Positions 1,691 to 4,533 of a stretch of DNA of 27,222 nt are shown one piece after another. Origin of the DNA: Pseudomonadota bacterium. Its GTDB lineage: Bacteria > Pseudomonadota > Gammaproteobacteria > Xanthomonadales > Rhodanobacteraceae. The notes under the pieces are model-generated. The model searched no databases. It had not been told where the DNA came from and worked only from the letters and a program-made list of their open reading frames with translations. Every line of letters begins with the position of its first letter. The first letter of the stretch is position 1. The translations under genes and the position numbers were made by a program. The stretch spans positions 1 through 27,222 of the forward strand of contig JAJXTX010000004.1 of assembly GCA_021783385.1 (NCBI GenBank), written 5' to 3'.

Positions 1691-1857
1691 AGCGTCCCGG
1701 ATAAAAAGGTGTGTGTGGCAGCGTATCGACGATGCCGATTCCGGGAATACCAGATAAGGTCTTGATCTCGTGTAGGATTAAGGCGGGAAAGGGGTGCACA
1801 GGGAAGCTGAACATCCCGTGCATATTGCGGAATCAAGGCACTACTGAAGCGTTAGGC
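1691..1857 (+). other. attI region between intI and first cassette
   Basis: This 160-bp non-coding stretch separates the intI start from the first cassette. It ends with the simple core GTTAGGC at 1851-1857, which matches the attI/attC crossover consensus, so cassette 1 begins at 1852. By family rule the cassette promoter Pc should lie here or in intI, but I find no convincing -35/-10 pair; TAGGAT at 1773-1778 has no partner. Confidence 0.7.
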
Positions 1858-1885
1858 TTGGCTTCGACTCATCATAAGGATTGAG

Positions 1886-2131
1886 ATGGATAATCAAAAA
1901 AGATACTGGTTCCCCGCAAAAAAATATGGCTGGGGTTGGAGCTTTCCAAGATGCTGGCAAGGCTGGGTTGTGTTCGTTGCGTACGCTGCATCCCTGTTGC
2001 TGCTCAACCATTTCTTGCCCTTGGCCAGCGAACATGCCACCCGCCTCGCTGGCACCGGTGTATTCACTATCGCTCTTCTAGCAATTTGTTGGCTGAAGGG
2101 TGAGCCGCCCGGTTCTCGTTCAGGCCAGTAG
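1886..2131 (+). CDS. Cassette 1: small two-helix membrane protein, function unknown
   Basis: 81 residues. A basic, aromatic N-terminus (RYWFPAKKYGWGWSFP at 6-21) is followed by a hydrophobic segment at about 26-46 and a second at about 55-71, ending in a short polar tail, so it is probably an inner-membrane protein with two spans. The start at 1886 is supported by AAGGA at 1876-1880, five bases upstream. The aromatic motif RYWFPAK-YGWGW is one I have seen in hypothetical proteins of proteobacteria without assigned role; no function can be inferred. It is the first cassette after attI and thus the most likely to be expressed from Pc. The stop is five bases before the attC. Confidence 0.75.
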   Translation: MDNQKRYWFPAKKYGWGWSFPRCWQGWVVFVAYAASLLLLNHFLPLASEHATRLAGTGVFTIALLAICWLKGEPPGSRSGQ

Positions 2132-2135
2132 TCGC

Positions 2136-2191
2136 GCCTAACCCGTCATCCAAGCGGACGGCTCCGCCGCCGCTTAATTCCAGCGTTAGGC
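2136..2191 (+). other. attC1 recombination site
   Basis: 56 bp. R'' is GCCTAAC (2136-2142) and R' is GTTAGGC (2185-2191), perfect complements. The inner arms AAGCGG and CCGCTT enclose GACGG/CCGCCG palindromic sequence, so the bottom strand can fold into the usual attC hairpin. The crossover is at 2185/2186. Confidence 0.93.
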
Positions 2192-2198
2192 ATCATAA

Positions 2199-2576
2199 AT
2201 GGAAGATCTGAGCCGCCCACCAACTAAGATCGAGCGCATTGTGGCTTCGTTCCTGTCGGCTGTAGCTACTCTCATCTTCGGCGCAGTCTCAGTCTTCATT
2301 TTTAGCAGCGTACCCATTTCATATCCGGCGCTTGCTATCTTCACGGTTCTGTTTCTAGTCAGCGCCGTTATGTTCTGCCGGGCTGCTTTTACTTCACGGC
2401 GGCGTCTTTCAAACAGAGGCCTGTCTCGTCTCGCTTGGGTGCTGTTAGTTGGTGGCGTCGCTTGTGCGGCGCTGGCTTTACTTTTTGGCTCGGGCACGCA
2501 CCGCCTATTGCTCCTAGGCTCAAGCCTCTCTTGTGTCGCGTATGGGCTTGCGGGTCTTCGTGGCCGCGCGCAATGA
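2199..2576 (+). CDS. Cassette 2: four-helix membrane protein, function unknown
   Basis: 125 residues with four predicted membrane spans at about 14-37, 42-63, 78-96 and 103-120, separated by a basic loop SRRRLSNRG near 66-74. I do not recognise a family. The ATG lies only 13 bases after the cassette crossover, and no Shine-Dalgarno is visible in the cassette's own 5' end, so translation may be leaderless or coupled to upstream translation. Base composition is less GC-rich than the bio and ilv genes, in keeping with a cassette of foreign origin. The stop is one base before the attC. Confidence 0.65.
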   Translation: MEDLSRPPTKIERIVASFLSAVATLIFGAVSVFIFSSVPISYPALAIFTVLFLVSAVMFCRAAFTSRRRLSNRGLSRLAWVLLVGGVACAALALLFGSGTHRLLLLGSSLSCVAYGLAGLRGRAQ

Positions 2577-2577
2577 T

Positions 2578-2634
2578 GCCTAACATCTCGTTCAAGGCGG
2601 ACGGCTTTGCCGCCGCTTAACTCAAGCGTTAGAG
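2578..2634 (+). other. attC2 recombination site
   Basis: 57 bp. R'' GCCTAAC (2578-2584) complements the TTAGGC that opens cassette 2. R' is GTTAGAG (2628-2634), whose last bases belong to cassette 3. Inner arms AAGGCGG and CCGCCGCTT flank a GACGGCTTTG centre. It is close to attC1, attC3 and attC5. Confidence 0.93.
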
Positions 2635-2644
2635 GGCAAAGCCA

Positions 2645-2959
2645 GTGTCTTGCAAGGATTGCGAAGATCTTAGTGTCGAGTATCGAATCGTCTCACCCAG
2701 CGATCTTCGTCAAGCTATTGCGGTCGTACGTGACAGCATCGAGGCCGGGACCATCCAAGAGATTCCGTCTCAGCCCAAGGCTTACGGCGGCAATGCATCA
2801 TTCCAAGACATCGCCAATGGCGGCGCATGGGACGATTTCGTCTGCTTTGATTTTCAGTGCGGTCAATGCGGGCAACGGTTCAAACTATCTGCCGAGACGT
2901 ACCATGGCAGCGGTGGAGCTTGGCGACCTGTCACGGCGGAGGTCGCACATGCCCTCTAA
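2645..2959 (+). CDS. Cassette 3: small protein with zinc-ribbon-like cysteines
   Basis: 104 residues from a GTG start. The start is supported by AGAGGG at 2631-2636, eight bases upstream; part of this ribosome site is the attC core itself. Two CxxC pairs, CKDC at 3-6 and CGQC near 72-75, could bind one zinc ion, and the C-terminal half QRFKLSAETYHGSGGAW resembles a conserved tail of unassigned proteobacterial proteins. No enzymatic motif is seen, so no function is proposed. The TAA stop lies inside the R'' core (CTCTAAC) of its own attC, and the insertion sequence starts three bases after the stop, so the coding region is intact. Confidence 0.7.
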   Translation: MSCKDCEDLSVEYRIVSPSDLRQAIAVVRDSIEAGTIQEIPSQPKAYGGNASFQDIANGGAWDDFVCFDFQCGQCGQRFKLSAETYHGSGGAWRPVTAEVAHAL

Positions 2960-2962
2960 CAG
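2954..2962 (+). other. attC3, left fragment (split by insertion sequence)
   Basis: CTCTAAC at 2954-2960 is the perfect complement of GTTAGAG that begins cassette 3, so it is the R'' core of this cassette's attC. Two bases (AG) follow before the insertion sequence. Joined to 4486 onwards it gives a spacer of exactly the same length as in attC2. Confidence 0.85.
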
Positions 2963-3302
2963 TTCCGTAAGAGACTTCCCGTCAATACCGCCCGCTTGAT
3001 GTTCTTGCCTTGAGCTTTCAGGCGTTCGCTGGTCATCGTGTTTCCTTCTGTACTGCGTCGTGCGTGTCAGTGCTGCGCGGTGCTGAACGTTGCCAGACTG
3101 CATTTCCGTAAACGGTCTTGTTGCATCGCTGCTGCTGATGCGGACCACGGCATAAACCGCGCCCGGAGACCTCATTCGTTCATCGGTGTCGTCGGTGTTC
3201 GGGGATCGGCCGAAACACTTTGTAGACGTCCAAACGGTTAGTCAGGTTCTCTCCGGGTGGGTCTGACCCGTTGCTACCGCTTCGCGCTGACGTGGAACCT
3301 TT
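2963..3302 (-). ncRNA. Candidate bridge RNA (seekRNA) region of the insertion sequence
   Basis: IS1111-group elements encode a guide RNA in the non-coding end downstream of the transposase, which is this 340-bp stretch. Read on the minus strand, it contains CGAATGAG (3178-3171), identical to the eight attC bases directly abutting the transposase-proximal end of the element (4493-4486), and about 60 nt further 3' TTACGGAA (3111-3104), identical to the last eight bases of the element itself (2970-2963). A target guide followed by a donor guide is the order known for bridge RNAs. Both matches stop exactly at the independently inferred junctions. I did not find clear guides for the opposite half-sites, and RNA ends are unknown. 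A small hairpin GGGTCTGACCC is at 3259-3269. Confidence 0.65.
2969..2979 (+). repeat. Subterminal inverted repeat, transposase-distal end
   Basis: AAGAGACTTCC, 11 bp, exact inverted match to 4471-4481. It lies six bases inside the proposed end of the insertion sequence. Confidence 0.85.
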
Positions 3303-4404
3303 TCATGCCATGGCGGCTGCCGTCGTGGCGTGTTCGCCGACCGGGGGCTTCGCCATCGGGTGCTTCACGCAGGCGTGTGGATCGTAGTCAAGATCGTGCG
3401 CGAGCATCGCCCACAGTTGCCGTGCGTGCTTGTTGGCGATCGCCACCAGCACTTTTCCAAAGGGCATCCGGCCATCGAGCTGGCGTATCCATAGTTGTTC
3501 GGGCGTGGACTTTTCCACGCTGACCGCCTGGGCTCGCTGCAGGCTGCTGCGCGCGCCCTGGATCAGCAAGGTGCGCAGGTACGCATCGCCGCGGCAGCTG
3601 ATCGTGCCCAGCCGTGCATGCCCGCCGCTGGAGTGCTGGGTCGGTACGAGACCGACCCAGGCGGCGAGCTGACGTCCGTTCCTGAACTCCCGTGCGTTGC
3701 CGACGCTGGCGACCATCGCATCGACCGTGATCGGCCCGACGCCGACGATCGCGCCAATCCGCACGCACCGCGCGTCCTGTCGGGCGTGGGCGTCGATGCG
3801 TGCGCCGCACGCGTCGATGGCCGCGCGCAACTGCGCCCAGTGGGCGCTGAGGTCACGCAGCAGTTCCTTGAACTCGCCCGGCAGCGCCTTGTGCGGGTCC
3901 AGGTCCGCCAGCGCTCGCCGCAACGCCACGTCGCCCTTGGCGATCACGATGCCGAACTCGGCCAGCAACCCGCGCAGGCGATTGCCGATGGCCAGCGACT
4001 CAGTCTTGTAGCCTTCGCGCACGCACCCGATGCCAGGACAACCGGACCTGCTGATCGACATCCTTCACCGGCACGAAGCGCATGTTGCCCTGGCGCGCCG
4101 CCGTGGCGATCGCCTCGGCGTCGTTGCGGTCGTTCTTGGCGTTGCGGCTCTTGCGGAACGGGGTGACGAACTGGGCCGCCATCAGTCGTGGCTGCAGGCC
4201 GTACTCCAGGCAGCGCCGCGCCCAATGGTGCGCCCCACTGCACGCCTCCATCGCCACCACCGAGCCGGCCGGCCGCTGGGCCAGCCACAGCGCGAACGCC
4301 TCGCGGCCCAGATCCTGCCGCCGCAACACATGCCCCGCGTCATCGACCTCACAGGTCGAAAAGGTGCTCTTCGCCAAGTCCACGCCAATGGTTATAGTGC
4401 TCAT
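3303..4404 (-). pseudogene. IS110-family DEDD transposase, frameshifted
   Basis: The N-terminal piece (4404 down to about 4027) holds the RuvC-like DEDD domain: Asp in TIGVDLAKSTF, Glu in VAMEACSGAHHWA and the pair of Asp in AKNDRNDAEAIA. The C-terminal piece (from about 4018 to 3303) has the Tnp_20 domain with GVGPITVDAMVASVG, the QHSSGG serine motif and RGDAYLRTLLIQGARS. The frame breaks inside what should read HRVREGYK. At 4019-4026 the plus strand has GCACGCAC, a tandem 4-bp duplication; removing one copy restores HRVREGYKTESLAIGNRLRG without any other change. Together the pieces would give about 365 residues, typical for the family. All catalytic residues remain, so the lesion looks recent. 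A programmed shift is unlikely because the break is +1 equivalent at a non-slippery site in mid-gene. Confidence 0.9.
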
Positions 4405-4470
4405 GGAGACTTCCTCTTCTGCTGACGGATGTTTCGCAACACCATCATGGCCCTCGAGGCCGAAAGGGGA

Positions 4471-4481
4471 GGAAGTCTCTT
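4471..4481 (-). repeat. Subterminal inverted repeat, transposase-proximal end
   Basis: On the plus strand GGAAGTCTCTT, the exact inverse of 2969-2979. Four bases separate it from the proposed end of the element at 4485. Confidence 0.85.
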
Positions 4482-4485
4482 TTTA

Positions 4486-4533
4486 CTCATTCGAGGCGGA
4501 CGGCTCCGCCGCCGCTCAACTCCAGCGTTAGGC
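4486..4533 (+). other. attC3, right fragment
   Basis: CTCATTCGAGG followed by the arms GGCGG and CCGCC and the R' core GTTAGGC at 4527-4533. It is the remainder of the attC begun at 2954. Cassette 4 starts at 4528. Confidence 0.88.

Follow-up and report, generated by a model that had tools for sequence, protein, structure and literature searches.

The window, by which we mean the whole stretch of 27,222 nucleotides analysed here, holds a chromosomal integron with its integrase IntI encoded on the minus strand at 683–1690 (TIGR02249, 472 bits against a cut-off of 265). One attC site of this integron is split by an IS1111-type insertion sequence of 1523 bp, which occupies positions 2964–4486 and, read on the minus strand, runs from GTAAAAA to TTACGGA. 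Both domains of an IS1111 transposase are present on the same strand, as two pieces in different frames: an N-terminal piece at 4000–4404 matches DEDD_Tnp_IS110 (PF01548, E=4.1e-11) and a C-terminal piece at 3303–4061, containing the motif GLVPTQHSSG, matches Transposase_20 (PF02371, E=1.4e-23), while relatives with an intact frame encode about 360 aa, for instance 364 and 356 residues in L011 and L037, the two elements of Dyella sp. S184. Against the NCBIfam model NF033542 ('IS110 family RNA-guided transposase', cut-off 140), the C-terminal piece scores 179.9 bits, the N-terminal piece alone stays under the cut-off with 128.9, and the intact relative L007 reaches 305.5 bits; the window protein thus resembles the family in its C-terminal piece but differs from it in being divided between two frames. 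Since the gene is frameshifted (or misassembled), the window copy is probably unable to make its own transposase. It looks inactive and is probably crippled, whereas the family is very probably functional.

The ends of the element are those of the IS1111 group, with subterminal inverted repeats and 7-base terminal extensions. On the minus strand, the left-end extension GTAAAAA (4480–4486), shared by most relatives in which the left end can be read, adjoins the left subterminal inverted repeat GAGACTTCC (4471–4479), and at the other end the right repeat GGAAGTCTC (2971–2979) is followed by the right-end extension TTACGGA (2964–2970), which covaries with positions 3111–3105, the left donor guide that reads it. 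Further IS1111 traits are the non-coding region downstream of the transposase gene (3302–2964, compared with 82 bases upstream of the first ATG) and the lack of a target duplication: the flanks, when the element is taken out, keep the GA-NNN-GTTAG spacing of intact attCs. The interrupted attC consists of a larger part at 4487–4533, whose spacer was compared with intact sites, and a smaller part, CTCTAACAGT, at 2954–2963, both on the plus strand. Among 45 readable left flanks of relatives, 43 are attC-like as judged by eye and share the same junction, so that place and orientation in attC are fixed; the exceptions are L010 and L088. Transposase domains, ends and attC-like flanks of relatives altogether support the initial annotation in its view of the locus as an IS1111-group element homing to attC. 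Its junctions need a small correction: the terminal strings stand where it had put them, but the ends are better shifted by one base. G precedes TAAAAA in 25 of the 26 copies of the first set whose left end is well recognised, as against A, C, G or T at that position in the listed spacers of intact attCs, and copies also differ in the eighth base that follows the right subterminal repeat. For these two reasons we place the element at 2964–4486, and the empty attC is best read as CTCGAATGA joined to ACTGTTAG.

Relatives were collected with three queries, the genome of the window being counted each time. The RNA-region query hit 40 of 149 related genomes, a second query 71 of 233 genomes of the family and a third 46 of 398 genomes of the order, the sets overlapping. 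The 114 loci gave 68 distinct copies, the window included, in which the right end could be read, and 32 of these also have a candidate left end. Sixteen full-length relatives of the first round could be aligned through both ends, with varying right-end extensions, that of L007 being interrupted. A scan of named genomes, in which the best 80 of 357 places were taken, yielded 21 further guide-region copies after removal of duplicates and fragments; one of them, L132, duplicates L108 in the first set and was excluded, leaving 20 held-out copies. The relatives reside mainly in Rhodanobacter, Dyella, Frateuria and other Lysobacterales. A search of the genome to which the window belongs returned, in addition to the copy described here, four lesser matches, two being fragments of the RNA region and two being 31–35 bases long; the fragments (L002, ~1501–1610, and L003, ~1501–1615) are decayed remnants of related elements, and the guide strand of L002 reads GAATGAACGAG. 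In plasmid DNA 48 records matched, none spanning 80% of the query, the best-ranked place being 72.7% identical over 31%; five plasmid records outside the matches listed reach 80–95% identity over shorter stretches. A protein search of plasmids with the C-terminal piece returned at least 5000 records, none of which reached 60% identity at its best-matching place. No feature named ISKpn4, ISPst6 or ISPa25 occurs among the plasmid matches listed.

Two minus-strand strings had been proposed as the guides of a bridge RNA: CGAATGAG at 3178–3171, repeated at 4493–4486, and TTACGGAA at 3111–3104, repeated at 2970–2963. Both are exact in position and identity, and neither recurs on the minus strand within the 332 nt of 3302–2971. 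Dinucleotide shuffling of this stretch produced CGAATGAG in 148 and TTACGGAA in 96 of 20,000 shuffles, about the one-in-190 expectation given at the time for an 8-mer. As each string alone thus turns up in 0.5–0.7% of shuffles and the transposase gene is broken, one might regard them as chance 8-mers in the unrelated non-coding tail of a dead element. Yet both together appeared in none of the 20,000 shuffles and, above all, the fold is conserved and the guides covary across relatives. This covariation refutes a chance origin, to which we assign a negligible probability.

The donor string was borne out as a guide, in the form TTACGGA (3105–3111, minus strand). We compared the seven bases that follow the right subterminal repeat with the seven at the place of TTACGGA (3111–3105) in all 68 copies, none being dropped. 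The two are identical in 48, and the mean match of 6.21 of 7, against 5.28 when shuffled, was reached by none of 10,000 shuffles, which ignore kinship; the 26 distinct pairs alone give 5.0 against 4.16, again with none of 10,000. Exact pairs of guide and end exist in seven versions (TTACGGA, CTAAGGA, CCAAGGA, CTACGGA, TTGAGGA, TTATGGA and CTACAGA), and an eighth, CTAGGGA, stands at both places in the later locus L136. Among the held-out copies 15 of 20 pairs are identical (16 of 21 if the duplicate L132 is counted), the others being L120, L142, L143, L147 and L152. The 20 non-identical pairs of the 68 include guides with insertions of ~25 nt, decayed copies, a misread register (L109) and nested elements (L007, L036). 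Close pairs of elements, at least 85% alike outside the guides and compared over the first six bases, tell the same story: guides differ in 30 of 39 pairs with different right ends and in 10 of 77 with equal right ends, counts that include overlapping, non-independent pairs and disturbed right ends. L025 and L027, 91.5% alike outside the guides, have CTAAGGA/CTAAGGA and TTACGGA/TTACGGA, respectively; L008 and L078 (91.1%) have TTACGGA/TTACGGA and CCAAGGA/CCAAGGA.

The candidate right donor guide is TTTATGC (3150–3156, minus strand), which faces the left-end GTAAAAA by a complementarity read from the sequence. Relatives carry TTTATAC or TTTTTAC at this place; TTTTTAC is fully complementary to GTAAAAA, TTTATAC is one base off, and the TTTATGC of the window is off by one base and a G-U pair. 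TTTATGC is probably the right donor guide, its partner GTAAAAA being nearly invariant. The donor loop would thus match the joined ends of the element, with a left guide that covaries, a right guide that is complementary and closing stems without compensatory changes.

Some copies carry an extra stretch of ~25 bases within the donor guide, which splits the guide in two and has runs of CCC and GGG that might pair into a hairpin (L021, L023, L029, L033, L043, L051, L086, L095, L143 and L152); this may be the multi-loop form described for IS1111 elements in PMC11208160. In L007 (~1830–3310) and L036, both of genome G030, the right-end extension harbours a second transposon with its own 467-aa frame. 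The two nested transposons are 99.6% alike over 1473 bases and sit in opposite orientations, after TTAC and CTAA.

On the target side, the guide that covaries with the left flank is TGAACGA (3176–3182, minus strand), which pairs with the bottom strand of the left half; no other scanned register covaries with this flank. A first set comprised 27 elements, five of the 32 left-end candidates having been dropped because they were without the GTAAAA junction. The register of CGAATGAG (3171–3178, minus strand), which overlaps the guide strand outside the covarying register, matched at 5.556 of 8 against 5.389 shuffled, a value equalled by 470 of 5000 shuffles, whereas four bases upstream the match was 6.333 against 5.675 and was equalled by none of 5000. 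The identification of CGAATGAG as the target guide is therefore not supported; the neighbouring register 3174–3182, also pointed out in the initial annotation, turned out to contain the covarying guide. This was seen again when 18 held-out loci were added and seven bases were compared in 13 registers over 45 elements: the upstream register gave 6.222 of 7 against 5.750, with none of 5000 shuffles (one of 5000 for the 21 distinct pairs; the shuffles ignore kinship), and the best of the eleven registers other than these two gave 456 of 5000. With U-G pairs allowed, the upstream register matches perfectly in 29 of the 45. In the 18 held-out loci alone it is perfect in 8, compared with 1 for the register of CGAATGAG, and better in 13 and worse in 2; covariation within these 18 is not significant (1534 of 5000) because most flanks there are alike.

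The guide of the window matches the occupied attC, CGAATGA, at 5 of 7 bases (6 of 7 when a U-G pair is counted), and both attC2 (2594–2588) and attC5 (5202–5196) at 7 of 7. Of the two elements whose left flank is not attC-like, L010 reads CCGACAGA at the guide as well as at the flank, and the guide of L088 matches at 6 of 7. Could CGAATGAG in its exact register nevertheless be the guide that reads attC left of the element? Its 8-base identity in the window is exact and its match level of 5.333 of 7 is the second-highest of the 13 registers scanned. However, this level does not covary with the flank (5.285 shuffled, 1720 of 5000, 45 elements), perfect matches number 5 of 45 as against 19 four nucleotides upstream, with the upstream register better in 26 elements and worse in 5, and at the non-attC flank of L010 the CGAATGAG register matches at 4 of 7, the upstream register at 7 of 7. 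We thus consider a guide role of CGAATGAG highly improbable and retain TGAACGA as the left target guide. The match of CGAATGAG is consistent with a near-repeat inside the guide strand, GAACGA-ATGAG.

The joined flanks of L010 (also L195) were also observed as an uninterrupted 19-mer elsewhere in the same genome (L197), the sole match in 233 genomes. L197 was considered as the empty site of L010 and rejected, as its surroundings fail to align with the L010 contig.

The opposite strand of the target loop carries the right target guide CTAACCGT (3234–3241, minus strand), which pairs with the top strand of the right half and whose sixth base covaries with the right flank. This 5' strand starts with CTAAC, followed by C in the window (CTAAC+C, 3241–3236), and its expected partner is the GTTAG of the right flank. 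Of the 68 copies 42 were usable, 25 having been dropped and one having too short a right flank. In these 42 the base directly following CTAAC varies with the flank (0.524 against 0.291, 3 of 20,000 shuffles, which ignore kinship), the second does so weakly (642 of 20,000), and the three bases together give 14 of 20,000, or 224 of 20,000 when the 31 distinct pairs are taken. When registers were scanned in 52 copies, that of CTAAC stood out with 17 of 5000, the next best giving 636 of 5000. With the held-out copies included (60 copies), none of 20,000 shuffles reached the value of the first base and 143 reached that of the second; for the third base there was no covariation with the right flank in either the 42- or the 60-copy set. 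Within the 18 held-out copies alone, where flanks vary little, the first base is not significant (1092 of 5000) and the second gives 198 of 5000. The CTAACCGT of the window agrees with its own flank (CTAACAGT reversed) at 7 of 8 bases. One and the same guide is found at differing right flanks in L063, L081 and L082, and matching must therefore be loose at those bases.

An alignment of 42 regions, from which insertion-bearing and truncated copies were left out, yields a consensus fold for a predicted bridge RNA/seekRNA core with two internal loops at 3088–3262 (minus strand; these boundaries delimit the core only). It comprises 36 pairs, 15 of them with compensatory changes, and 97.5% of 1510 cells are paired. 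None of 500 shuffles reached the observed value on any of five measures, and slid versions pair at 34–47%. The two target guides lie opposite each other in the first internal loop, and the second has TTACGGA on its 3' side and TTTATGC on its 5' side; hence the suggestion that the guide regions fall in internal loops agrees with the fold of the relatives. Stems 6 and 7, which close the donor loop, show no compensatory change in the 42-sequence alignment, and the RNA of the window folded alone does no better than shuffles (z −0.66). Rfam gives no match at gathering score in the window and, for 2950–3310 up to E 10, one chance-level hit (E 9.1). The strand order is that of IS1111 elements, the top-strand match (3241–3234) lying 5' of the bottom-strand match (3182–3176) in the sense of the transcript, and the two target guides stand on opposite strands of one loop and covary with the insertion sites. 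Because guides covary with ends and flanks and the two-loop fold is conserved, we interpret the region as a bridge RNA or seekRNA; the presence of such an RNA downstream of the transposase had been proposed from the window alone and is upheld by the relatives. The target loop comes first, as proposed, and the donor guide follows the target guide at ~65–70 nt.

A simpler RNA should be weighed against this, namely a single-loop seekRNA in whose region the copy of TTACGGA is incidental or is a protein-binding copy of the end. Indeed, an 82-nt RNA with target matches is enough for transposition of ISEc11 (PMC11187229). The internal copy and the end nevertheless agree in seven versions, and they change together, as is not expected of a protein-bound repeat, in three clean pairs 88–92% alike among the pairs listed (L025/L027, L008/L078 and, with one mismatch, L016/L024). 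Moreover, the copy lies in an internal loop in which the opposite stretch is complementary to the other end of the element. A single-loop RNA is thus quite unlikely, and the two-loop RNA remains our reading.

We consider it very likely, from comparison of the sequences, that this attC-homing IS1111-group element works by an RNA with two reading loops. Within loop one, CTAAC+C on the 5' side matches the right half of the attC spacer and TGAACGA on the 3' side its left half; within loop two, TTACGGA on the 3' side matches the right end of the element itself. By analogy with published relatives, the excised element would close into a circle, whose joined ends would form a promoter, TTGACG-17 bp-TAAAAA, transcribing the transposase gene and the RNA. 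The putative −35-like TTGACG lies at 2980–2985 (minus strand), in the circle 17 bp from the −10-like TAAAAA (4485–4480), and TTGA is kept at the place 2985–2980 in 62 of 68 copies. The transposase would bind the RNA, with the circle junction held by the second loop and the attC spacer by the first, around a shared GA core, and junction and attC would be recombined without target duplication, again as suggested by the relatives. That RNA guidance explains how such elements find attC gains support from the covariation in relatives, but the idea is not new, as it was published in 2024 (PMC11187229). Beyond this, we lean towards a full two-loop bridge RNA in IS1111 in which both loops evolve, the donor guide and right end having passed through at least eight versions and L010, in Rhodanobacter, having switched to a non-attC site with its target guides changed to match. 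If so, the family would preserve a natural history of how an attC-seeking element is reprogrammed.

ISKpn4, ISPst6 and ISPa25 are said to have been described as elements of an IS1111-attC group by Tetu and Holmes in 2008 and Post and Hall in 2009. RNAs that co-purify with the ISKpn4 and ISPst6 transposases match attC, and an attC-matching RNA was predicted for ISPa25 (Siddiquee et al. 2024, PMC11187229). According to the same paper, the downstream RNA region is essential in ISEc11, for which an 82-nt RNA sufficed, top-strand matches lie 5' of bottom-strand matches, and ISEc11 makes a junction promoter. Bridge RNAs were predicted in 93.0% of IS1111 elements, mostly at the right end, and many have a multi-loop containing bases that could bind the donor (Durrant et al. 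2024, PMC11208160). Given these reports on ISKpn4 and ISPst6 and the family-wide predictions, RNA-guided attC homing as such is not new. The window element shares with ISKpn4, ISPst6 and ISPa25 an IS1111-type transposase, subterminal inverted repeats and an RNA region downstream of the transposase gene, as well as, likened by description, the attC target and a top-strand match 5' of the bottom-strand match; it differs in that a donor guide also covaries, whereas the main text of PMC11187229 describes target matches and no donor guide. With the IS110/IS621 bridge RNA (PMC11208160; structure in PMC11208158) it has in common two internal loops, target then donor, guides to opposite strands and a shared core dinucleotide. 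Unlike in IS110/IS621, the RNA lies at the right end, the subterminal repeats are long, the strand order of the guides is reversed, and the core would be GA rather than CT.

In the literature matches listed and the article passages covered, there is no covariation analysis of attC-homing IS1111 RNAs. The gain thus consists of one more member, the correction of the guide register and evidence from a single attC-homing family that both target and donor guides covary, together with four specific guide sequences for an element that homes to attC in a chromosomal integron. Whether IS1111 RNAs have a working donor loop is left open by the main texts of the two published accounts, and the covariation supporting such a loop is a modest advance on that point. 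As attC insertions were suggested to freeze cassette arrays (PMC11616780), the way in which attC sites are located is relevant to integron dynamics.

Genomes of the genus differ greatly in their cassette arrays, judging by the attC spacer pattern, which occurs between 0 and 89 times per same-genus genome (89 in G016, 87 in G017, 84 in G009; 0 to 7 for the reversed control). Finally, a branch with GGAAGCTCC or GGAGCTTCC as its right subterminal repeat still targets attC (L108, L109, L131, L133, L136, L137, L140, L141, L143, L144, L145, L147, L152 and L156). Its hosts belong to other genera, e.g. Stenotrophomonas, Pseudoxanthomonas, Lysobacter and Luteimonas, and it is also seen on contigs binned as Akkermansiaceae (L131) and Azonexus (L147). 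Most members of this branch carry the guide TTACGGA, with CTAGGGA in L136 and TTATGGA in L147.
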